Source: Roseimaritima ulvae
GTDB lineage: Bacteria > Planctomycetota > Planctomycetia > Pirellulales > Pirellulaceae
DNA: 64,000 nt
Assembly: GCF_008065135.1 (NCBI RefSeq)
Contig: NZ_CP042914.1
Coordinates: 4,259,404 to 4,323,403 of the forward strand
Direction of reading: 5' to 3'
This document shows, in pieces, positions 53,584 through 64,000 of this stretch. Each line of letters starts with the position of its first letter. The first letter of the stretch is position 1. The notes below the pieces were generated by a model. The model was not told the origin of the DNA, did not search any database, and saw only the letters and a list, made by a program, of their open reading frames with translations. Position numbers and translations under genes: made by a program.

Positions 53584-54191
53584 TCCTGCCGCTCCAAGTG
53601 CCAGTACAACAACCCCGCTGATAAACACTGCCCGCCCCCAAACAAAATCCCCATCCCCATTCCCGCGATGGGCATCGCTTGCGGCGCCGCCAGCAACCAG
53701 ACAGTGGCCGCCGCCGCGTAGTAGCTCCCACAGACCGACGCGATGAACGGCAACATCGGACGGGTCGCAAATATTCCCAACGCCAGACAATATGCCCACA
53801 GCGAAGGCAACATCCAACCATAGCCCGGTGCCACTCGCAGCAATCCGGCCGTCAACAAGGCCCCCACGCATAAACAGGGCGTCAACACGTTCAATACCTC
53901 ACGCGTCATCCGCCGTTGCCGCGCCGTGGGACTGGCATGATACCGCATCACCATGTCGATCACCACAAACGCCAAACTGCAGCCCGCCACCAGACTCCAC
54001 AGCCCCACGTACTGCTGCAGGTAAGCCGCATCGTCGACCGCCACCAGCCAGCGAGACTGAAAAGCCGCCGCGGCAATCGCCAGCAACCCCGATCCCAACG
54101 TCGGCAGAGCCCGGATGCCATCAAACCGCTGGGCACGCGCAACCGATTGGCGAATCCAATCGATCTCGTCCATCGCTTCCTCAATCCGCAT
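53580..54191 (-). CDS. Multi-pass membrane protein coupled to a winged-helix regulator
   Basis: This protein of 203 residues has about six hydrophobic segments after an amphipathic N-terminal helix (RIEEAMDEIDWIRQSVARAQ). I recognise no transporter or enzyme motif. The final segment, GMGMGILFGGGQCLSAGLLYW, is Gly-rich. ATG at 54191 is preferred; the frame is open to 54470 but the added residues are Ser/Gly/Arg-rich and unlike a protein N-terminus. The regulator gene follows with a four-base overlap, suggesting that the regulator responds to or controls this protein. Confidence 0.78.
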   Translation of the reverse strand: MRIEEAMDEIDWIRQSVARAQRFDGIRALPTLGSGLLAIAAAAFQSRWLVAVDDAAYLQQYVGLWSLVAGCSLAFVVIDMVMRYHASPTARQRRMTREVLNVLTPCLCVGALLTAGLLRVAPGYGWMLPSLWAYCLALGIFATRPMLPFIASVCGSYYAAAATVWLLAAPQAMPIAGMGMGILFGGGQCLSAGLLYWHLERQE

Positions 54192-54463
54192 CTCAGCTAC
54201 TTCGCTCGTACCGGACCCCAGGCCGCCTCGGTGACCCTTCCAACTGCCTCGAATCAAGGAAAACCGGCGGCTTTGCAACAGAAAGCTTAGTGTTCCGAGG
54301 CCGCCTGTCAACTTTTTTCCCGACGGTTTTTTTGAGCTTTGACCTAACGTGTCCACGGCCTGGCGAAGATACCCGCAGTGGGATTGGCTCCCACAAGGAA
54401 CTTCACCAACCCTCCCGTCTCCGCTGGAACGAGTCCGAGCGAAGACGCAGCCGAGTCCTGACG

Positions 54464-54766
54464 ATGACACAGCTACTACTATTCGATGCCCTTGATTCGT
54501 CCGCTGGATTGGCCACGCCGGTGTACCCGAGCGTGGTCGCCGAGCCCACTGGCGGGAAGTCGAACACCGCCCGGAAGTCCCCCGCCGTGACGGCCTCCAC
54601 GCCGCTGCCGCAGTTGTCGCGGAGCCTGCCGCTGTACGATCCCCAACGCGGCGAACTGCATCACTTTGGCGACCTCGCCCAAGGCGTGATCAGCCGCTAT
54701 GAGATCGTCGCCCAGCGCCGAGCCGTGTTGTTGGCCCGCGGCCCCCGCCAAGTCGCCCGAGCCTAA
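54464..54766 (+). CDS. Uncharacterised 100-residue protein
   Basis: I do not know this protein's function. It begins MTQLLLFDALDS, has a Ser/Thr/Pro-rich middle and a better ordered C-terminal half: LPLYDPQRGELHHFGDLAQG, then VISRYEIVAQRRA and a basic end. There is no signal peptide or membrane segment. The frame is open far upstream (to 53792), but that region is antisense to the membrane-protein gene. The only other support for a real gene is neighbouring-like codon use and a family A element following the stop in the sense direction. Confidence 0.6.
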   Translation: MTQLLLFDALDSSAGLATPVYPSVVAEPTGGKSNTARKSPAVTASTPLPQLSRSLPLYDPQRGELHHFGDLAQGVISRYEIVAQRRAVLLARGPRQVARA

Positions 54767-54781
54767 CAGTTCCGCTTCCGC

Positions 54782-54899
54782 GTAGCATGGGCCCCCGGCC
54801 CGTGTCCCTTTCGTAGCATGGGTCCCCGGCCCGTGTTCGCTCCTGGCCCCTCCGCCTCTTCCTGACCGATCTGCACGGGCCGGGGACCCATGCTACTTT
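54782..54899. repeat. Family A elements, last one inverted
   Basis: Two GTAGCATGGG units lie on the plus strand behind the 100-residue protein gene, followed by an inverted unit (GGGCCGGGGACCC, then ATGCTAC) that ends in TTTTT just before the sulfatase gene. Confidence 0.8.
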
Positions 54900-54983
54900 T
54901 TCGCACACGCGCATCGCCGTGCCATCTCAGTTATGCTTTAAAGCTTGCTATTCACTCATCCTCCGCATTGCGTATGAGCCGTT

Positions 54984-56561
54984 ATGCCCCAACAAGCTTT
55001 TCCGTATTCTGCATGCCGTCTGGTGTTCGTGCTGTGCCTGGTCGCCGGTTTGTCCCTTGCCCTGTGCGCGCACCGAGCCACGGCGGCGTCTCCGAATGTG
55101 ATCGTCGTGTTGGCGGACGATCTGGGCATCGGCGACGTTTCGCCGACCAACCCGGACGGCAAGATCAAAACGCCCAATCTGCAACAGTTTGCCGACCAGG
55201 GGCTGACCTTCCACGATGCGCATACGCCCAGCGCGGTGTGCACGCCCACGCGATACGGCTTGCTGACCGGGCGCTACAACTGGCGTTCGCGACTGGCTCG
55301 AGGCGTCCTGAGCGGTACCAGCGAGCACCTGATTCCTGCCGACCGGCCCACGCTGGGGCACTTAATGCGGGGTGCGGGATACCACACCGCGATGATCGGC
55401 AAATGGCACTTGGGCTGGGACTGGCCCAAGGTGGGCAAAGAGATCGATTTTACTCAACCCGTTCTTAACGGTCCCGACATCAACGGCTTCGACCACTACT
55501 ACGCTCACTGTGGTTCATTGGATATGCCGCCCTACGTCTGGGTCGATACCGGACGCGTGACCGCCCAGCCGGATCGCGTCGAGGGCGTGACCAAGAAGCA
55601 AGATCGCTACGGTTGGTACCGTAAAGGTCCTATCGGTGCCGATTTCCATATCGACGAAGTCCTGCCGCACCTGTTCGGTCAATCGATGGACTACGTCCGC
55701 AAACACGCTCCTCAAAAAGATGCCGACAAACCGTTCTTCCTGTACTTGGCATTGCCCGCTCCGCACACGCCGATCGTGCCGGTACCGCCGTTTAAAGATG
55801 CTAGCGGCATGAATCCCTATGCGGACTTTGTGATGCAGGTCGATCACCACTTCGGGGAATTAATGGCCTGCCTCAAGGAAGCTGGTATCGATGACAACAC
55901 GCTGGTCATTTTCACCAGCGACAACGGATGCTCTCCGGAAGCCAACTTTGGAGTCTTGGCCAGCCACAACCACGATCCCAGTGGCGGTTATCGCGGACAC
56001 AAGGCGGACATTTTTGAGGGCGGACATCGTGTGCCCTTACTCGCTCGCTGGCCCGAAACAATCGCCGCCGGCCGTGATACCGATCAACTGGCCTGTTTGA
56101 CCGATCTGTATGCCACGCTGGAAGCGATCACCGGCCAACCGCGTCAAGCGGTCGGTGGCGAAGACAGTTTCAGTTTGCTGCCCGTCTTCACCGGCCACAC
56201 AACCGGTCAGGACAGCCCTTCGCGAAGCACATTGATCAGCCACTCCATCGGCGGCTCCTTTGCAATTCGGCAAGGCAACTGGAAACTGTGCCTGTCGGCG
56301 GGCAGCGGCGGCTGGAGTTCGCCGCGGGAGATGGTAGCACGCGAACGAGGCCTACCGCCGATGCAACTGTTTGATCTGGAAAACGACCGCAGCGAACAAA
56401 ACAACTTGGTCCAACAACATCCTGATAAAGTCAATGAGTTGTTACGCATTCTGCGACGCGAAGTCGAACAGGGCCGCTGCACCCCCGGCGAAGCGTTGGA
56501 CAACGATCGCCAGGTCGACGCCCTGCCCGCGGGCGTTAGCTGGCCGACGCCGGAAAACTAA
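54984..56561 (+). CDS. Secreted arylsulfatase-type sulfatase
   Basis: This enzyme hydrolyses sulfate esters, in planctomycetes typically on sulfated algal or animal polysaccharides. The 525-residue protein has a signal peptide (hydrophobic 13-28, ending ATAA), then NVIVVLADDLGIGD with the metal-binding Asp pair. The sulfatase signature CTPTRYGLLTGRY has Cys86 as the residue converted to formylglycine. Further motifs are MIGKWHLGW, PFFLYLALPAPHTP and TSDNGCSPEANFG. It is an S1-family enzyme with all key residues. No maturase (FGE) or other sulfatase gene is adjacent. ATG at 54984. Confidence 0.95.
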   Translation: MPQQAFPYSACRLVFVLCLVAGLSLALCAHRATAASPNVIVVLADDLGIGDVSPTNPDGKIKTPNLQQFADQGLTFHDAHTPSAVCTPTRYGLLTGRYNWRSRLARGVLSGTSEHLIPADRPTLGHLMRGAGYHTAMIGKWHLGWDWPKVGKEIDFTQPVLNGPDINGFDHYYAHCGSLDMPPYVWVDTGRVTAQPDRVEGVTKKQDRYGWYRKGPIGADFHIDEVLPHLFGQSMDYVRKHAPQKDADKPFFLYLALPAPHTPIVPVPPFKDASGMNPYADFVMQVDHHFGELMACLKEAGIDDNTLVIFTSDNGCSPEANFGVLASHNHDPSGGYRGHKADIFEGGHRVPLLARWPETIAAGRDTDQLACLTDLYATLEAITGQPRQAVGGEDSFSLLPVFTGHTTGQDSPSRSTLISHSIGGSFAIRQGNWKLCLSAGSGGWSSPREMVARERGLPPMQLFDLENDRSEQNNLVQQHPDKVNELLRILRREVEQGRCTPGEALDNDRQVDALPAGVSWPTPEN

Positions 56562-56620
56562 GATTTTCCCGCGGCGAAGCAGCGACGCAAAACCTGCCCG
56601 CCCGCAAATCTGGAATCTCC

Positions 56621-56913
56621 TGACTCTAACGAAATCTATGTATGGGCCGTACAAAGCCGAGCAATCGTTTAACCCGTAGCCGGAGAAGGCTGCTGATTTA
56701 GTCGTGGAGCGACTGATTCAGCGGCCTCCGCAGGCGTAGGCGTCCGGACGGCCTAGCATTGAAGTCGACGCGAATGGTTCGATACCACCGACAAACACGC
56801 CAACGTTTTCGCTTGCCCTCGCCGACGCCTCCGGCTAGGGGTTAAACGATTGCTCGGTTGTCCGCAGCCTGACCAATCGTTACCGGACGCGTACATAGTT
56901 TCCGGTAGAGTCA
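56621..56913. repeat. 293-bp palindromic element between the sulfatase and esterase genes
   Basis: TGACTCTA at 56621 pairs with TAGAGTCA ending at 56913. Farther in, CCGAGCAATCGTTTAACCC (left arm) has an almost exact reverse complement in the right arm at 56830-56861. A smaller hairpin, CTGATTTAGTCG with CGACTGATTCAG, lies inside at about 56690. The arms share GGGTTAAACGA with the element at 6458. It forms the first half of the 584-base gap 56562-57145; the second half is the heptamer array. Confidence 0.65.
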
Positions 56914-56916
56914 GCA

Positions 56917-57119
56917 AACCTGAAACCTGAAACCTGAAACCTGAAACCTGAAACCTGAAACCTGAAACCTGAAACCTGAAACCTGAAACCTGAAATCTGA
57001 AATCTGAAATCTGAAATCTGAAATCTGAAATCTCAAATCTCAAATCTCAAATCTCAAATCTCAAATCTCAAATCTCAAATCTCAAATCTCAAATCTCAAA
57101 TCTCAAATCTCAAATCTCA
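56917..57119. repeat. Heptanucleotide array: 11 AACCTGA, 5 AATCTGA, 13 AATCTCA
   Basis: There are 29 uninterrupted 7-bp units (203 bp) in three homogeneous blocks, each block differing from the previous one by a single base. The array begins 3 bases after a palindromic element and ends 26 bases before the ATG of the esterase-lactonase gene, so it lies in that gene's promoter or leader. A 7-bp period is not a multiple of 3, so it changes reading frame if translated. On the minus strand it gives a false peptide of repeated Phe/Ser/Gly/Arg. Confidence 0.95.
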
Positions 57120-57145
57120 AATCTTCCAACTCCCAACTCCCAGCC

Positions 57146-59725
57146 ATGCCCCGCATCCTGCCGCTCTTACTGCTGCTGTGCCCGACTCTCCTGCCTGCCG
57201 CCGAAACCTCCGACACTGCCGATCGTACCGTCCAGTCCGATGTGCCCCAGGGCAAATTGACCAGCGGCGAGTTCTCTGACAGCCAGCTGTTCCCCGGCAC
57301 GACGCGGCAATACAGCGTTTACGTACCGGCCCAGTACCGCCCCGATCAACCCGCCGCGTTGATGGTGTTTATGGACGGTAAGAACTACGCCAAAGCGGAC
57401 GGATCGTTTCGCGTTCCCACGGTGTTCGACAACCTGATCCACCAACAAGCGATGCCGGTGACGATCGCTGTATTCGTGAATCCGGGCACGATCCCCGCTA
57501 CCAAACCCGGGGCTGCCAACCGCAGCAACCGCTCGTTCGAATACGATTCGCTGGGTGACCGCTATGCAAACTTCCTGATCGATGAATTCCTGCCTGTGGC
57601 TTTGGATGGCTTGAACGTGTCCAGCGATCCGGCGCAGCGAGCCGTGTGCGGGATTTCCTCCGGCGGGATCGCGGCCTTCACCGTCGCTTGGGAAAAACCC
57701 GAACAGTTCGGTAAAGTGCTCAGCCACATCGGCAGCTTTACCAACATCCGTGGCGGTTGGGCTTACCCGGGCCTGATCCGCAAGACCCATAACAACCCCA
57801 AGCCGATCAAGGTCTATCTGCAGGAAGGCGAAGACGACCTGAGCAACTTGCATGGCGACTGGCCTTTGGGAAACCAAGACATGGCCGCGGCGCTGCAATT
57901 TGCCGGTTACCAGTACAAGCTGGAAATGACGACCGGCGGGCACAGCGGCAAATGGGCGGGCGAAGTTCTGCCCTCGGCCCTCCGCTGGCTGTGGTCCGAT
58001 CAAGCGGAATCGACGGTGATTACAGCCACGCCGACCAAGCCGGATTGGCAACCGCATGCCGACGCCGTCCGCCGCGAAGACGTACCGCAAGGCACCGTGC
58101 ATGACATGCCACCGTGGGAGTCGGAGATTCTGGAAAACACGATTCGCGACTGGTCGATTTACGTTCCCGCTCAATACAACAAGGATCAACCGGCGGCTTT
58201 GATGGTGTTCCAGGACGGTCACTCGTTCCGCAATCCCAAGGGTCGCTGGCGGGTTCCGATCGTGTTCGACAATCTGATCGCCGACGGACACATGCCGCCC
58301 ACGATCGCCGTGTTCCTCAACCCTGGGCACGACCAAACCAAACCGCGCGGTAAACGTGGCAAACCTTCGGATCGCGGGTTGGAATACGACAGCCTGGGTG
58401 GTCGTTACTCCCGCTTCTTGATCGAAGAGATTCTTCCGGAAGTCCGGCAGCGGTACAACATCTCGCCGGACCCTGCCATGCATGCCATCGGCGGGTCGAG
58501 CAGCGGAGCGATCTGCGCGTTCACGGCCGCATGGGAACATCCAGAGGTTTTCCGCAAAGTGTTTTCCAGCGTCGGCAGCTTCACGCATCTCCGCGGCGGT
58601 AACGCTTACCCCGGTTTGGTGCGCAAAACCGAACCGAAACCGCTTCGCGTTTACATGGCCGATACCAGCGCCGACGTCGACAACGCGTTTGGCAGTTGGC
58701 CCTGGGCGAACCGGCGGATGGCATCGGCGCTGGAATACATGGGCTACGACGTACGCTTCGACTGGGCGGAGGGTTATGGCCACAATTCAGATTTTGGGGG
58801 GCTGCGTTTCCCCGATGCAATGAAATGGTTGTGGCGCAGTGAACCGCATCAGGCTGAACTGGACACCTCGGACGACCTACGTGGCGACCTGACTCTGCTG
58901 AACCTGCTGATTCCTGGGAAGGATTGGGAAGTGGTAGCGGACGACCTTGGGTTTGCCGATGCCCCGTGCAGCGATGCCGACGGCAACTTTTACTATTCCG
59001 ACATGAAGGCGCCGGCCGTGTATCGCGTCGACGCCGTGGATGGAACGCAAACCAAGATCGCGGAACAATCCGTCAGCGGCCTGGAATTCGGCCCCGACGA
59101 ATTGTTGTACGCCTGCCAGGGCAGCAAGCAGCGAGTGATTTCCATCGATCCCCAAACCGGCCAGGTCAACACGGTGGCAACCGACGTGGTGCCCAATGAT
59201 ATGGCGATCACCGCCGAGGGCACGATCTATATCACCGAAACCCGCAAACAGCAGGTCACGCGGATCGACCCCAAGACCGGCCAAGTAACGCCGGCGGACA
59301 CGGGCATTACCGCTCCCAACGGAATCGCCCTGTCCAACGACGGAGGCACCCTGGCCGTGTCGGACTACCGCGGCGAATTCGTGTGGATGTTTCGCGTCAA
59401 CGCCGACGGATCACTGGACGCCAAAATGCCCTCGATGACAATGCGGTTGCCGATCGACGAATCCGGGCAATTTAAATTCAACGAACCGCCGCCGTACCTG
59501 AGCGCAGTGAAAGGCGACGGCACGGCGGTCGACCGCCGCGGTCGGTATTACGTGACCAGCGCATTGGGCGTGCAAATTTTTGATCCCACGGGGCGCCCGT
59601 GTGGCGTCTTGCCGAAACCCCGCGAGGATCAACCGTTGACCAGTTGTGTACTGGCCGGTCCCGATCACCAGTACCTGTATGTCACCAACGGCACGTCCGT
59701 GCTGCGCCGCAAACTGACGCCGTAG
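57146..59725 (+). CDS. Exported fusion of two enterochelin-esterase-like domains and an SMP-30/lactonase propeller
   Basis: This 859-residue protein has a signal peptide (1-19), two homologous esterase D/Fes-like hydrolase domains and a C-terminal SMP-30/gluconolactonase-type beta-propeller (about 590-859). Domain one (about 35-295) has the nucleophile motif GISSGG (Ser171); domain two (about 320-575) has GSSSGA (Ser452). Both share YVPAQY, QPAALMVF and a final GH motif (TGGHSGKW; EGYGHNSDF) that supplies His. The propeller has GVFRV-type blades such as PNGIALSNDGGTLAVSDYRG. The combination suggests serial hydrolysis of a plant or algal ester or lactone in the periplasm; the substrate is unknown. 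The heptamer array lies just upstream. Confidence 0.88.
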   Translation: MPRILPLLLLLCPTLLPAAETSDTADRTVQSDVPQGKLTSGEFSDSQLFPGTTRQYSVYVPAQYRPDQPAALMVFMDGKNYAKADGSFRVPTVFDNLIHQQAMPVTIAVFVNPGTIPATKPGAANRSNRSFEYDSLGDRYANFLIDEFLPVALDGLNVSSDPAQRAVCGISSGGIAAFTVAWEKPEQFGKVLSHIGSFTNIRGGWAYPGLIRKTHNNPKPIKVYLQEGEDDLSNLHGDWPLGNQDMAAALQFAGYQYKLEMTTGGHSGKWAGEVLPSALRWLWSDQAESTVITATPTKPDWQPHADAVRREDVPQGTVHDMPPWESEILENTIRDWSIYVPAQYNKDQPAALMVFQDGHSFRNPKGRWRVPIVFDNLIADGHMPPTIAVFLNPGHDQTKPRGKRGKPSDRGLEYDSLGGRYSRFLIEEILPEVRQRYNISPDPAMHAIGGSSSGAICAFTAAWEHPEVFRKVFSSVGSFTHLRGGNAYPGLVRKTEPKPLRVYMADTSADVDNAFGSWPWANRRMASALEYMGYDVRFDWAEGYGHNSDFGGLRFPDAMKWLWRSEPHQAELDTSDDLRGDLTLLNLLIPGKDWEVVADDLGFADAPCSDADGNFYYSDMKAPAVYRVDAVDGTQTKIAEQSVSGLEFGPDELLYACQGSKQRVISIDPQTGQVNTVATDVVPNDMAITAEGTIYITETRKQQVTRIDPKTGQVTPADTGITAPNGIALSNDGGTLAVSDYRGEFVWMFRVNADGSLDAKMPSMTMRLPIDESGQFKFNEPPPYLSAVKGDGTAVDRRGRYYVTSALGVQIFDPTGRPCGVLPKPREDQPLTSCVLAGPDHQYLYVTNGTSVLRRKLTP

Positions 59726-59761
59726 TCTGCAGTCGTTGGCAGCGACCGGGGCCGAGGCTCT

Positions 59762-61480
59762 CTAACGCCGCGGATCGACGCTTTGCCAGGGTTTTGTATT
59801 GGCGACTTGAGCCGCGGTTAAACCGCCGCGACGGGCTTGCTGGATGCCATGTTTCATCACGTCCAGGCCGTCGATCGAATGCGCATCGGTGCTGATCACG
59901 ATCGGCACGCCCTGCCGAGCGGCCATCGTCAGGTGCTGCTCGTTCAAATCCAGGCGGGCCGGGTTGGCGTTCAGCTCCAGCAGTTTGCCGTGCTCGGCGG
60001 CGGCTTGTACGACGGCTTCCATATCCACGTCGTAGGGCGGACGGCGATTGATCAGCCGCCCCGTGGGATGAGCCACGATGCTGACATACGGATTGGCCAG
60101 CGCGCCGGTGATGCGATCGGTGATCTGCTGCCGCGGTTGCTTCTGGCCGTAGTGCACGCTGGCGATGATCCAGTCGCCTTCGGAGAGCACCTCGTCGTCC
60201 AGGTCCATCGAACCGTCTTCCAGGATATCGCATTCGATGCCTTTGAGGATTTCCAGCCGGCCTTCGTATTCGGGACGGATTTCGTCGATCATCGCCCATT
60301 GTTCCCGCAGGCGTTCGGCGTCCAAACCGCCGGCCATGGCAACCCGTTTGGAGTGATCGGTGATGGCGATGTATTTCAGCCCCCGCTCGATCGCCGCGTC
60401 GGCCATTTCGCGGATGGTTGCCTGCCCATCGGTGGCCGTGGTGTGCATGTGCAGATCGCCCTGGATCTGGTCCAGTGTGATCAGCTCGGGCAGCGAACCG
60501 GCGGCCGCCCATTCGAATTCAAATCGATCCTCGCGAATCTCCGGTGGAAAGCATGGCAGCTCCAACGCCGCGTACACATCCGCTTCGGTTTCGCTGGCCA
60601 GCGGTGTTTCCTCGTCGTCGGCAAACACCCCGTACTCATTGATTTTCAGTCCGCGTTTTTTTGCCAGCGAACGCAGGTGCACGTTGTGTTCTTTGGAACC
60701 GGTAAAGTACTGTAGCGCGGCCCCGAACTGATGGGACTCAACCACCCGCATGTCCACCTGAAACGAGGCACCAATCCGCATCGACACCTTGGTGTCACCT
60801 CGAGCGATGGTTTCGGATCGTCCCGCAAAGGCTTCGAAGTGATCCATCACGGCGGCCCGGTCGTCGGCCACGACCAGCAGATCCACGTCGCCGACCGTTT
60901 CCCGGCCGCGGCGATAACTGCCGGCCGGTTGCACGCGTTGGATGCCCTGGTGGCGGTTCATGTGGGCGAGCAGTTGTTGGACGATTTGGTCGGCTTCTAC
61001 CCATCGCAACCGTTCGTTGGCAGCTTCGGCGATTTCCAAACCCTGCAGAATCATCTGCTCGGTTTTGGCCGCGAAGCCTTTCAGTTTTCGGACTTGCTGT
61101 CGCTCACAGGCGTCGCGCAGTTGAGCCAGGGTGTCGATGCCGAGTTCACGATGCAACGCGGCGGCTTTTTTGGCACCCAGCCCCGGCACGCGGACCATCT
61201 GTAACACGCTGGCCGGGATTTCGGCGCGGAGGTCTTCCAGCTGGGACAGGGAACCGCTGGCCAACAGCGTTTCGGATTTTTCCGCCAGCGTCTTTCCAAT
61301 CCCGGGGACATCCGCAAGTTTGCGATTCTCATCGGCAATGATCGCGGCCACGGATTCTTCCAGTTCGCGAATCGCCTTGGAACCGTTGCGGTAGGCGCGG
61401 ACGCGGAACGGGTTTTCTCCCTTGAATTCCAGCAGATCCGCCAGTTCGTCGAAGACGTTGGCGATTTGGGCGTTGTTCAT
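59762..61480 (-). CDS. polX: DNA polymerase X family protein with PHP domain (PolX)
   Basis: Bacterial PolX fills short gaps in base-excision repair and carries a PHP 3'-5' exonuclease/phosphatase domain. The 572-residue length is exactly typical. The N-terminal 8-kDa/HhH part includes LADVPGIGKTLAEK, the palm has GDVDLLVVADD (metal-binding Asp pair) and the C-terminal PHP domain starts GDLHMHTTATDGQ, with HSKRVAMAGG, ASVHYGQ, AHPTG and STDAHS supplying the metal-ligand His/Asp set. ATG at 61480. It sits 18 bases behind the serine hydrolase gene on the same strand, so the two may be co-transcribed, although their functions are unrelated. Confidence 0.95.
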   Translation of the reverse strand: MNNAQIANVFDELADLLEFKGENPFRVRAYRNGSKAIRELEESVAAIIADENRKLADVPGIGKTLAEKSETLLASGSLSQLEDLRAEIPASVLQMVRVPGLGAKKAAALHRELGIDTLAQLRDACERQQVRKLKGFAAKTEQMILQGLEIAEAANERLRWVEADQIVQQLLAHMNRHQGIQRVQPAGSYRRGRETVGDVDLLVVADDRAAVMDHFEAFAGRSETIARGDTKVSMRIGASFQVDMRVVESHQFGAALQYFTGSKEHNVHLRSLAKKRGLKINEYGVFADDEETPLASETEADVYAALELPCFPPEIREDRFEFEWAAAGSLPELITLDQIQGDLHMHTTATDGQATIREMADAAIERGLKYIAITDHSKRVAMAGGLDAERLREQWAMIDEIRPEYEGRLEILKGIECDILEDGSMDLDDEVLSEGDWIIASVHYGQKQPRQQITDRITGALANPYVSIVAHPTGRLINRRPPYDVDMEAVVQAAAEHGKLLELNANPARLDLNEQHLTMAARQGVPIVISTDAHSIDGLDVMKHGIQQARRGGLTAAQVANTKPWQSVDPRR

Positions 61481-61498
61481 GATTGGTTCAGCGAGCGG

Positions 61499-62737
61499 TT
61501 AGAGGTAGCGTTCAAACAAATCTTCGCGGGGCCATTCTGAAACGGCGTCAACGGCGCGGTGCAGCGGCGCGTCGATCAGCGAGCATAATTGTTTGCGGTC
61601 GCGGCCGTAACGTTGGTTGAACAAGACGCACCATGCCAAATCGTCGTGACGCAACACCCATAGAGCATTGGTCCCGTCCAAGGAACCGTTGTGCCACAGA
61701 TTGTGTTTGCCGTTCTTTAAGCTTCGCACCTGCACGCCGCAACCATAATGCACGGCCTTTTCAGCGTCGACGAAGTCCGGTTTGCGGACCATCGTTTGCA
61801 TCGAAGCGGCGGACAAGGGCGCCGCCCAAACGAAGCGTCGCAGTGCCGACGCCAGACGGACCAATCCCGTGGCGGTGGCCAGCCAACCACCATGCGCGGC
61901 CATTGGTTCCAGGTGATAGTGACCGTACGGTCCGGCCACCGGCTGACGCTGCGGGGTCAGTACCGAAGGATAGGTTTTGTCTGGGCGGTCGGCGACGTAG
62001 ACGACTTCGTTCTCTGCCGCCTGGGAGCGTGCCGTTCGTCCCAATTGCATGCGACGTTCACCGCAGGGATGGAGGATTTCCCGCTGCACGAACGCTTCGT
62101 ACGCGTCCCCGCTCACACGTTCGATGACTTGGCCCAAAAGCAGATAGCCGAAGTTCGAATAGGCGTAACGGCTGCCGGGGATAAAGTCGAGCGGCCGGTC
62201 CAGCATGTAATCGACGATCGCTTGTTGCGACACGGGCAACGCAACCTGTTGGGACTTCGCAATGTCCTCGTCGCGAAACATCGGGTCGAAGCTGGCCTGA
62301 CGGTCGAACCCGCCACTGTGGTGCAGCAGATGGTCGATCGTGATCGCTGCGAAAGCCGTGTCGGTCGGACGCAACTGCAGCACGTCGACGACTCGGTCCG
62401 TTAGCTTCAGGTCCCGTCGCTGGCACAGTCGCAGGATCGCGATGGCGGTTAACGGTTTAGAGACGCTGGCGATGCGGAACCGATGCAGCGGCGTCACGGG
62501 GGTTTGCCTGTCTGGATCGGCCAGGCCATATCCAGCCGCGTGGACCAGGCGGCCGCGGCGGGTGATCGCCAGAGAAGCTCCGGTGACCGAGTGCTGCTGC
62601 ATAAAGTCCGCCATCATCGCGTCGACGGCCGGCAAGCCGACGCCCGTCACCCGCGGTGCGGCCGCAACGCAGCGGGGGACGCAAGTCGCGGTCGCAGCGG
62701 CGGCCAGGAAGTGCCTGCGGTTGAAATCACGAGTCAT
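61499..62737 (-). CDS. Tat-exported class C beta-lactamase-like serine hydrolase
   Basis: This periplasmic serine hydrolase belongs to the beta-lactamase/D-Ala-D-Ala carboxypeptidase/esterase superfamily. The signal is twin-arginine (TRDFNRRHFLAAAA). The catalytic SxxK is SVSK, YxN is YSNFGY, and the HNG triad is replaced by WHNGSLDGT, giving a complete active site. ATG at 62737 puts the Tat motif at the N-terminus; the frame extends to 62776. It has 412 residues. Activity could be peptidase, esterase or beta-lactamase; antibiotic resistance should not be assumed. The polX gene follows after 18 bases. Confidence 0.9.
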   Translation of the reverse strand: MTRDFNRRHFLAAAATATCVPRCVAAAPRVTGVGLPAVDAMMADFMQQHSVTGASLAITRRGRLVHAAGYGLADPDRQTPVTPLHRFRIASVSKPLTAIAILRLCQRRDLKLTDRVVDVLQLRPTDTAFAAITIDHLLHHSGGFDRQASFDPMFRDEDIAKSQQVALPVSQQAIVDYMLDRPLDFIPGSRYAYSNFGYLLLGQVIERVSGDAYEAFVQREILHPCGERRMQLGRTARSQAAENEVVYVADRPDKTYPSVLTPQRQPVAGPYGHYHLEPMAAHGGWLATATGLVRLASALRRFVWAAPLSAASMQTMVRKPDFVDAEKAVHYGCGVQVRSLKNGKHNLWHNGSLDGTNALWVLRHDDLAWCVLFNQRYGRDRKQLCSLIDAPLHRAVDAVSEWPREDLFERYL

Positions 62738-62770
62738 GACGTATCCACGGTGAGGGATGAGTAACCCGCC

Positions 62771-62797
62771 GTCCAAACTCTGGCGAGTTCGGCTACG
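62771..62797 (-). repeat. Family B hairpin element behind the thioesterase gene
   Basis: One full family B unit (AACTC, TGGC, GAGTT as written on plus) reads GTAGC first on the minus strand, about 24 bases past the thioesterase stop. Confidence 0.8.
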
Positions 62798-62820
62798 GGG
62801 CAGCGGCTATTGTTGGGGGG

Positions 62821-63207
62821 CTATTTGTTGAGCAGTTCTTTGGGCAAGCGGCGAGGCTTTCCGCTGCGGTCGATGCAGGCGATCGTCGATTCGGCGGTGA
62901 CGATCAAGTCGTCGTCGCGGTGGATGGTGTATTCGAAACGGACGCGGACGCCTTTGGCAGAGACCACACGGGTGGTCAGCCGCAGCAGGTCGTCAAATTC
63001 GGCGGCCGCCATGTATTTAACGTTCATCTCGGTGACCACCAGCATCAGTCCGGTCGCTTCCAGCTCTTTGTAACTGATCCCCGCGGCCCTCAACATCTCC
63101 ACGCGGCCGCGTTCGAAGTAGTTCAGGTAGTTGCCGTGGTGGACCCGTTGCTGGCCGTCGGTTTCGAAGTATTCGACGCGGAATTCGAGTATAAATTCAG
63201 TCAACAT
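62821..63207 (-). CDS. Acyl-CoA thioesterase, YbgC/FadM-like hotdog fold
   Basis: This 128-residue 4HBT-family thioesterase cleaves acyl-CoA or acyl-ACP thioesters. The active-site region is RVEYFETDGQQRVHHGNYLNYFERGRVE (quoted in part), with the family's Asp within YFETDGQ and HHGNYLNYFE; the C-terminal strand is RVRFEYTIHRDDDLIVTA. The length is usual. ATG at 63207. It is separated from the serine hydrolase by a gap containing a family B element. A specific substrate cannot be named. Confidence 0.9.
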   Translation of the reverse strand: MLTEFILEFRVEYFETDGQQRVHHGNYLNYFERGRVEMLRAAGISYKELEATGLMLVVTEMNVKYMAAAEFDDLLRLTTRVVSAKGVRVRFEYTIHRDDDLIVTAESTIACIDRSGKPRRLPKELLNK

Positions 63208-63307
63208 CAGTCCAGGGCTTGGCGAGGGGGTGGTATTTGCCAGGAAGGGGTACGAAGCCTAAACTGTCGCCGACCTTCCGCACGCACCCCCAACGATTGA
63301 GAACGCG

Positions 63308-63805
63308 ATGAGCATTGGCGAGGGATCGGACACCAATTTAAACACCATGCGAGGCCGCGATTTCCCGGCGATTCGGCAGTTTACCGTATTCATGGAGAAC
63401 CGCGTCGGCCAGCTATTAGAGGTGGTGCGACGATTTGAGGGAACCGGGATTCGGGTCGCCGCGTTATCGATCAACGATTCCGCCGAGTGCGCCTTCGTCC
63501 GGCTGGTGCTGAGCGACTGCGAGCGGGGCCGCGAGCTGCTCGAGCGCGCCGGGCTGGCGATCATCGAAACCGACCTGCTGGGCGTGGAATTGCCCGATGG
63601 CCCGCAACCGCTGCTGCGCGTCTGCACGGCGCTGTTGGCGGCCGAAATCAATATCATTCAAGCCTACCCCCTGCTGTCGCGTCCCAATGGCGAGCCCGCC
63701 GTGGCTCTGATGGTCGATAATATCGATCTGGCCATGGACACATTAAACAACAAGGGCTTTCGGATGATCACCGAGGGTGATTTGAAAGACGATTCGATCG
63801 AATAA
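63308..63805 (+). CDS. Double ACT-domain protein
   Basis: This 165-residue cytoplasmic protein consists of two ACT domains, small ligand-binding modules that usually sense amino acids. The first runs from IRQFTVFMENRVGQLLEVVR to the middle, the second from QPLLRVCTALLAAEINIIQA to the end. No enzyme domain is attached, so it probably regulates a partner protein; similar stand-alone double-ACT proteins exist in many bacteria. ATG at 63308. An in-frame ATG 13 codons later is possible but the longer form is kept. Confidence 0.86.
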   Translation: MSIGEGSDTNLNTMRGRDFPAIRQFTVFMENRVGQLLEVVRRFEGTGIRVAALSINDSAECAFVRLVLSDCERGRELLERAGLAIIETDLLGVELPDGPQPLLRVCTALLAAEINIIQAYPLLSRPNGEPAVALMVDNIDLAMDTLNNKGFRMITEGDLKDDSIE

Positions 63806-63840
63806 GGCTTTTCCCCCAGCGCGTACCAGGAACTCTTCGA

Positions 63841-64000
63841 ATGTCGACTAATTCACCCTATAGCACAGTCCCCGGCCAGCAACCCGCTCCGCCGGCCTCC
63901 AACAACACGACCAAGATCGTGTTGATCATTCTGGGGGTGTTGTTTTTGGCGTTCTTGCTGTGCGGCGGCGTAATGGTGGCCCTGTTGCTGCCGGCGGTCA
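63841..64000 (+). CDS. Short membrane-anchored protein (N-terminal part only)
   Basis: The frame starts with ATG at 63841 (AGGA nine bases upstream) and runs off the right edge after 53 codons. It has a Pro/Ser-rich N-terminus (MSTNSPYSTVPGQQPAPPAS) and one membrane helix (IVLIILGVLFLAFLLC) continuing GGVMVALLLPAV. ALLLPAV at the end of a helix is also seen in planctomycete type IV pilin-like/DUF1559 proteins, but here it follows a Pro-rich tail, so the family is unsure. It is 35 bases behind the ACT-domain gene and probably in the same unit. Confidence 0.6.
   Translation, partial: MSTNSPYSTVPGQQPAPPASNNTTKIVLIILGVLFLAFLLCGGVMVALLLPAV

Follow-up and report, generated by a model that had tools for sequence, protein, structure and literature searches.

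The protein encoded at positions 57146 to 59725 of the stretch of Roseimaritima ulvae DNA analyzed here (64,000 nucleotides, referred to as the window) carries two esterase domains and a propeller of the SMP-30/gluconolactonase (SGL) type in a single chain. Each of these domains comes from a well-known family, and no description of the whole three-domain chain was found in the literature searched. Our preferred reading, at about even odds, is that the protein is a secreted three-site hydrolase, in which two divergent serine esterases and a metal-site propeller would act on one extracellular substrate. The gene and its parts are as follows.

57146..59725, + strand: whole gene for the esterase-esterase-SGL protein, an open frame of 859 aa with an ATG start
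57146..57205, + strand: signal-peptide-like N-terminus, residues ~1-20, judged by eye (pLDDT <50 at residues 1-6 and 8-22)
57236..58021, + strand: esterase domain 1, residues 31-292, a Fes/CE1-like alpha/beta hydrolase (PF00756, 59.5 bits)
58022..58072, + strand: linker, residues 293-309, where four split relatives have a gene boundary and a second signal-peptide-like stretch
58073..58846, + strand: esterase domain 2, residues 310-567 (PF00756, 52.1 bits)
58907..59722, + strand: SMP-30/gluconolactonase-type propeller, residues 588-859 (PF08450 SGL, 92.2 bits)

The original prediction described two esterase domains and an SMP-30-type propeller in one exported protein. When each domain stretch was scanned separately, both esterase domains scored above the cut-off of PF00756 Esterase (22 bits) and the propeller above that of PF08450 SGL (26.3 bits); these matches, together with 69 copies in the same order, bear out the proposed architecture. 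The first ~20 residues resemble a Sec signal peptide by eye, and the protein is apparently exported. The two esterase domains are 49% identical to each other. A whole-protein AlphaFold2 model, for which the input alignment consisted of 35 family members, had a pLDDT of 88.6 and a pTM of 0.87. Since the propeller fills the fold-match list of the whole model, domain 1 was modelled separately, with a pLDDT of 94.6.

A one-off, chance or assembly artefact was ruled out by the 69 whole-architecture copies collected (the window's own included), which share the same domain order and are ~65-76% identical to the window protein. These copies, 59 from a scan of one genome per species and 10 from near genomes, are not all independent: L006 and L046 are apparently the same genome, drawn twice from separate collections, some of the rest are near copies, and L072, cut by the end of its contig, lacks roughly 30 N-terminal residues. 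Among the best 80 of 82 matches, the species-genome scan yielded 79 loci, which were sorted into 59 whole fused genes, seven cut by contig ends, three split, one internally shortened, six two-domain and three single-esterase forms. Record titles assign the 59 whole fused copies to planctomycetes, except for four titled just 'bacterium' (L039, L044, L064, L070). In a Gemmata bin (L099:7845-9731), the gene is shortened in frame to a hybrid in which the beginning of esterase 1 runs into the remainder of esterase 2 and the propeller; it could be either a true collapse between the repeats or an assembly effect.

The distribution of the architecture is patchy. A full-length match at E 0 was present in 10/60 near genomes and a match at E <= 1e-200 in 8/392 genomes across the phylum (R. 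ulvae itself included in both counts), while 57 of the 60 near genomes had some match at E <= 0.001. Around one relative (G048), 6/20 genomes matched, among them G451, in which the match covers residues 299-857 alone. The R. ulvae genome, a single contig of 8.2 Mb, carries the gene once, and three further matches in it cover single domains, with identities of 31-36%. Averaged across the copies, identity to the window protein was 76.7% for domain 1, 73.3% for domain 2, 67.1% for the propeller, 51.0% for the linker and 25.9% for residues 1-30; strictly invariant positions numbered 68/262 in domain 1, 70/258 in domain 2 and 50/272 in the propeller.

The literature searched, in which subscription journals were sparsely represented, contained no title or abstract describing an esterase-esterase-SGL architecture, and no reported activity was found there for any family member. 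The figure abbreviations of PMC4522959 place an SMP-30 region among the domains seen with prolyl oligopeptidases, which is a different fusion. The earlier suggestion that this domain order is not a standard architecture is in keeping with the literature searched, but the order recurs in dozens of planctomycetes.

The putative catalytic residues of the two esterase domains, each present in 69/69 copies, are listed below.

57656..57658, + strand: Ser171, putative nucleophile of domain 1, aligned with the Ser motif of ferulic acid esterase 7xrt
57836..57838, + strand: Asp231, putative acid of domain 1, from the profile alignment to 7xrt
57941..57943, + strand: His266, putative base of domain 1, from the profile alignment to 7xrt
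58499..58501, + strand: Ser452, putative nucleophile of domain 2
58673..58675, + strand: Asp510, putative acid of domain 2
58781..58783, + strand: His546, putative base of domain 2

Ser171 and Ser452 both lie within G-x-S-S-G motifs, and the intact Ser motifs originally proposed at these positions were correctly placed. With the four propeller residues discussed below (Asp605, Asn684, Asn725 and Asp791), ten putative site residues are each conserved in 69/69 copies. Judging from the profile alignment to 7xrt, this conservation and the modelled fold of domain 1, the protein has a CE1-type Ser-Asp-His set in a CE1 fold. CE1 feruloyl and acetyl xylan esterases (5vol, 7xrt, 1jjf, 6ne9, 8bbp) have the fold in common with it (Z 22-25; for domain 1, 5vol Z 24.6 and 1jt2 Z 24.0), but are 18-23% identical, and their partner modules, where PDB titles give them, are CBM48 or xylanase rather than a second esterase and an SGL propeller.

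That esterase and propeller take part in a single reaction sequence is best supported by the recurrent pairing of the same two families, as neighbouring genes, as two-domain fusions and in the three-domain chain. An SGL match was found in the flank (~1.5 kb a side) of 7/16 stand-alone-esterase loci, and none in that flank at the remaining 9/16; at L019 the SGL gene is upstream of the esterase, not downstream. At six two-gene loci with longer flanks, chosen because the pairing had already been observed there, the two genes share a strand, with the esterase first and the SGL second, in 6/6. No further gene family was common to the nine loci with longer flanks, in one of which (L121) the fused gene was missed by the gene picker. 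The Planctomycetota gene pairs (L016-L018, L021, L025) have the same two families side by side, and the Planctomycetota two-domain fusions (L014, L015, L022, L024, L104-L108) have them in one chain, but in both cases with one esterase. The two-domain fusions occupy three places on the esterase tree, and L022 carries an SGL domain from a separate lineage.

A two-domain relative of 601 aa, ~36% identical to the window protein, was also observed on Klebsiella/Shigella plasmids (L113:14896-16701, L115:9896-11701), where it adjoins a divergent LysR regulator gene. It appeared in six plasmid records, of which the two viewed were typed conjugative, and in 4/5426 E. coli genomes, always plasmid-borne.

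We then considered the propeller and its putative metal site, for which the relevant positions are given here; the fused copies number 69, and the three-domain and simpler relatives are the rows of a separate propeller alignment.

58958..58960, + strand: Asp605, at the position of the metal-ligand Glu in SMP-30 lactonases (Asp in 69/69)
59195..59197, + strand: Asn684, putative active-site residue (69/69); equivalence to xylonolactonase Asn101 inferred from motif order
59318..59320, + strand: Asn725, putative metal ligand (69/69); equivalence to Asn146 inferred from motif order
59516..59518, + strand: Asp791, putative metal ligand (69/69); equivalence to Asp196 inferred from motif order
58967-58969, + strand: Cys608, Cys in 69/69 fused copies; 15/15 three-domain vs 0/13 simpler relatives
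59114-59116, + strand: Cys657, Cys in 69/69 fused copies; 15/15 three-domain vs 5/13 simpler relatives
59600-59602, + strand: Cys819, Cys in 68/69 fused copies; 15/15 three-domain vs 1/13 simpler relatives
59645-59647, + strand: Cys834, Cys in 69/69 fused copies; 15/15 three-domain vs 1/13 simpler relatives

The structural matches of the modelled propeller were 3e5z (Z 32.1, 256 aligned, rmsd 2.5), 3dr2 (Z 31.8) and RPA3624 (8djf, Z 31.3), and the Foldseek list also included the xylonolactonase 7plb (TMt 0.70) and SMP30 3g4e (TMt 0.69). In PDB profile searches with the SGL domain, designed 'Pizza' propellers ranked high and LRP propellers were among the best matches, which we took as repeat similarity. 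The propeller has its fold and three of four site residues in common with these SMP-30/gluconolactonase lactonases; it differs from them in having Asp605 in place of the ligand Glu and in adding four near-invariant cysteines, a 13-residue insert and two fused esterases. The metal triad of the Caulobacter crescentus xylonolactonase is given in a passage of PMC9795676 as Glu18, Asn146 and Asp196. The profile position with Asp605 opens the match to 7plb (profile position 21, chain residue 18); the equivalence of Asp605 and Glu18 assumes that the 7plb chain numbering is that of the paper, and the other three equivalences were assigned by motif order alone.

The Glu/Asn/Asp metal triad of the SMP-30 type is incomplete, the Asn and Asp being kept and the Glu being Asp605 in every copy. 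In the propeller alignment of 28 rows, this position is Asp in 15/15 three-domain systems (12 fused, 3 split) but Glu in 13/13 simpler relatives (8 two-domain fusions and 5 neighbouring genes). The 15 three-domain propellers also have in common the 13-residue insert, which lies ahead of Asp791. The exchange of Glu for Asp is a conservative change, with which metal-lactonase function could still be compatible, or it may mean a weaker or altered metal site; the four cysteines and the insert may provide disulphides or a reshaped pocket. The label 'lactonase-like' that the original prediction gave to the propeller suits its fold; given Asp605 and the four near-invariant cysteines, lactonase activity is at most putative.

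The main rival to a three-site hydrolase is a propeller that merely binds. Two working esterases would then be carried on a non-catalytic propeller, serving as a binding or spacing domain for the substrate or a partner. The Asp in 69/69 copies fits such a role, as do the cysteines and the insert, which suggest remodelling. In the plasmid-borne two-domain relative (P0002), the propeller has been kept although each of the four putative metal-site positions is changed, so that a domain of this kind can evidently be retained when the site is lost. On the other hand, Asn684, Asn725 and Asp791 are invariant, Asp is a conservative ligand swap, nearly a fifth of the propeller (the 50/272 positions given above) is strictly invariant, and the SGL domains beside or fused to a single esterase retain the Glu in all 13 rows. 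We therefore consider a purely binding propeller rather unlikely, while regarding it as the alternative to be taken most seriously.

Separate homologues encoded together, as the original prediction had asked of relatives, were found both as the side-by-side esterase and SGL genes described above and as split pairs at four loci. At L092, L097 and L098, in bins titled Verrucomicrobiota, a gene for esterase 1 is followed on the same strand by one for esterase 2 plus SGL; the same split pair (products of 304 and 601 aa, counted from the farthest upstream start codons) is present at L125 in G451, a genome of the same order as the window's. Each of the two genes has its own start and signal-peptide-like stretch. 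A W-x-P-H-x-D-A stretch, close to where the mature part of the second split product begins, is kept in 67/69 fused linkers and in 3/4 split loci, L097 having a variant.

An esterase tree of 80 domains, in which 21/69 fused copies were used, grouped domain 2 with the second split esterase (support 99/93) and domain 1 with the first (80/89, rising to 100/99 when L097 was left out). Each fused domain groups with its own split partner, apart from the other, so the duplication predates the fusion. The tandem duplication envisaged in the original prediction did give two distinct conserved Ser-Asp-His sets, but a recent duplication within the gene was ruled out by the separate grouping of the domains, each with a stand-alone partner, by their 49% identity and by the adjacent genes at the four split loci.

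These results also bear on the possibility that the two esterase domains are redundant copies of the same specificity, maintained for avidity or dosage, in a fusion without sequential logic. The domains do belong to the same fold family, with the same site residues and about half of their sequence identical. However, they hold separate places on the tree across phyla, and in a comparison of six loci, five fused and one split, 11 positions are fixed differently between them (e.g., Met76/Gln356, Phe88/Trp368 and Gly228/Thr507). Both Ser-Asp-His sets are also intact in all 69 copies, and redundancy therefore seems improbable.

The history of the fusion itself is less simple. In a first concatenated tree (40/69 fused rows and three split loci) the fused rows formed one clade (SH-aLRT 93). 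When the fourth split locus, L125, was added (31/69 fused rows, with a more careful tree method), it fell among fused rows that branch early. The test for one fused clade then ended in a borderline rejection (p-AU 0.043), so that we dropped a single clean fusion event. The split esterase 1 rows of L092 and L098 nest among the fused domain 1 rows in the esterase tree, contrary to the concatenated trees, whose root is the long branch L097. It appears from these trees that the fused or split state has changed at least twice; we make no claim as to direction.

We also examined the genomic surroundings of the gene, which in the window include the following.

54984-56561, + strand: sulfatase gene upstream of the gene studied here (PF00884, 163 bits)
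59762-61480, strand opposite to the gene studied here: PolX-type PHP gene downstream

Neighbour clustering was entered with 59 loci, of which L063 and L066 were dropped because the core was missed by the gene picker, and extended over up to 7 genes and 8 kb in each direction, less on the many contigs that ended sooner. No neighbour similarity cluster spanned more than 5/57 fused loci, giving no pointer to a pathway, and operon context was dropped as a substrate clue. One of the three widest clusters looks sulfatase-like. With the window's upstream sulfatase as query, 17/535 flanking ORFs matched, in 15/57 loci (within seven genes, in varying places and on varying strands); a sulfatase lies directly upstream on the same strand in one of the 57 (L088). 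Sulfatase matches number 102 in the R. ulvae genome and 34-110 in seven relatives, and ~11 would be expected from genome density (<=16 kb a locus) vs the 17 observed, in which near copies are included. Sulfatase neighbours are thus at most in modest excess, a faint hint of a polysaccharide setting. Rfam gave 0 matches in window positions 54000-64000, and a promoter and terminator scan gave nothing above shuffles. The split pair in G451 is preceded by a gene whose start looks PHP-like by eye (L125:5008-6276); that this pair and the window gene both have a PHP-type gene nearby is probably coincidence. The split pair at L098 is adjoined on the opposite strand by a gene for a 990-aa protein with a cytochrome c domain (PF00034) near its C-terminus (L098:10691-13660), and that at L092 by a TonB receptor gene on the other strand.

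Domain 1 is similar to the enterobactin esterase Fes (PDB 3mga, 3c87, 2b20) in its PF00756 membership and its alpha/beta hydrolase fold (Z 26-27 over ~230 residues). Its best structural match is 3mga (Z 26.8, rmsd 2.5, 230 aligned), followed by 3c87 (Z 26.6). However, identity is 20-21%, the match covers only Fes residues from ~157 onward, the esterases here are tandem and propeller-fused, and the score against the NCBIfam enterochelin esterase equivalog (NF007758) is 89.7 bits, below the cut-off of 222. A siderophore-hydrolysing protein, in which Fes-like esterases would open a catecholate ester and the propeller would handle a lactone, is very improbable, for despite the Fes matches and the TonB receptor gene beside one split locus, feruloyl esterases are close in fold and top the sequence profile search, the equivalog cut-off is missed, and no neighbour family, as judged by similarity clustering, recurs in more than five of the 57 loci.

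Returning to the secreted three-site hydrolase, we infer that all three sites are catalytic and act on a common substrate, the product of one site being the substrate of another. The exported protein would encounter this substrate outside the cell, where, through the classical Ser-Asp-His acyl-enzyme mechanism, each esterase domain would cleave an ester bond of its own or, in a repeating substrate, its own position. The sequential cleavage of a di-ester or polymer raised in the original prediction may or may not be part of this. The propeller would hold a divalent metal by Asp605, Asn725 and Asp791, with Asn684 beside it, and would hydrolyse a lactone or some other ester, either part of the esterases' substrate or formed from it. 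The parts would be made from two adjacent genes (esterase and esterase-propeller) in some lineages and as one chain in others.

To our knowledge, many planctomycete hydrolases have no known substrate. We tentatively propose that the protein represents a secreted enzyme with several functions, so far undescribed, that occurs in Planctomycetota and Verrucomicrobiota. Two esterases of different specificity and a propeller with a remodelled metal site (Asp in place of Glu, four conserved cysteines) would together take apart, step by step, a single extracellular compound that is multiply esterified or contains a lactone; gene fusion and gene splitting would be two ways of holding the three sites together. 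There is a fairly clear comparative-genomic sign that an esterase and an SMP-30-type propeller act in one reaction sequence, as the pair recurs in each of the three arrangements. The pairing offers a small testable prediction for two large families, namely that the propeller would act on the product of the esterase, and the change from Glu to Asp offers a direct test of what the propeller metal site requires.
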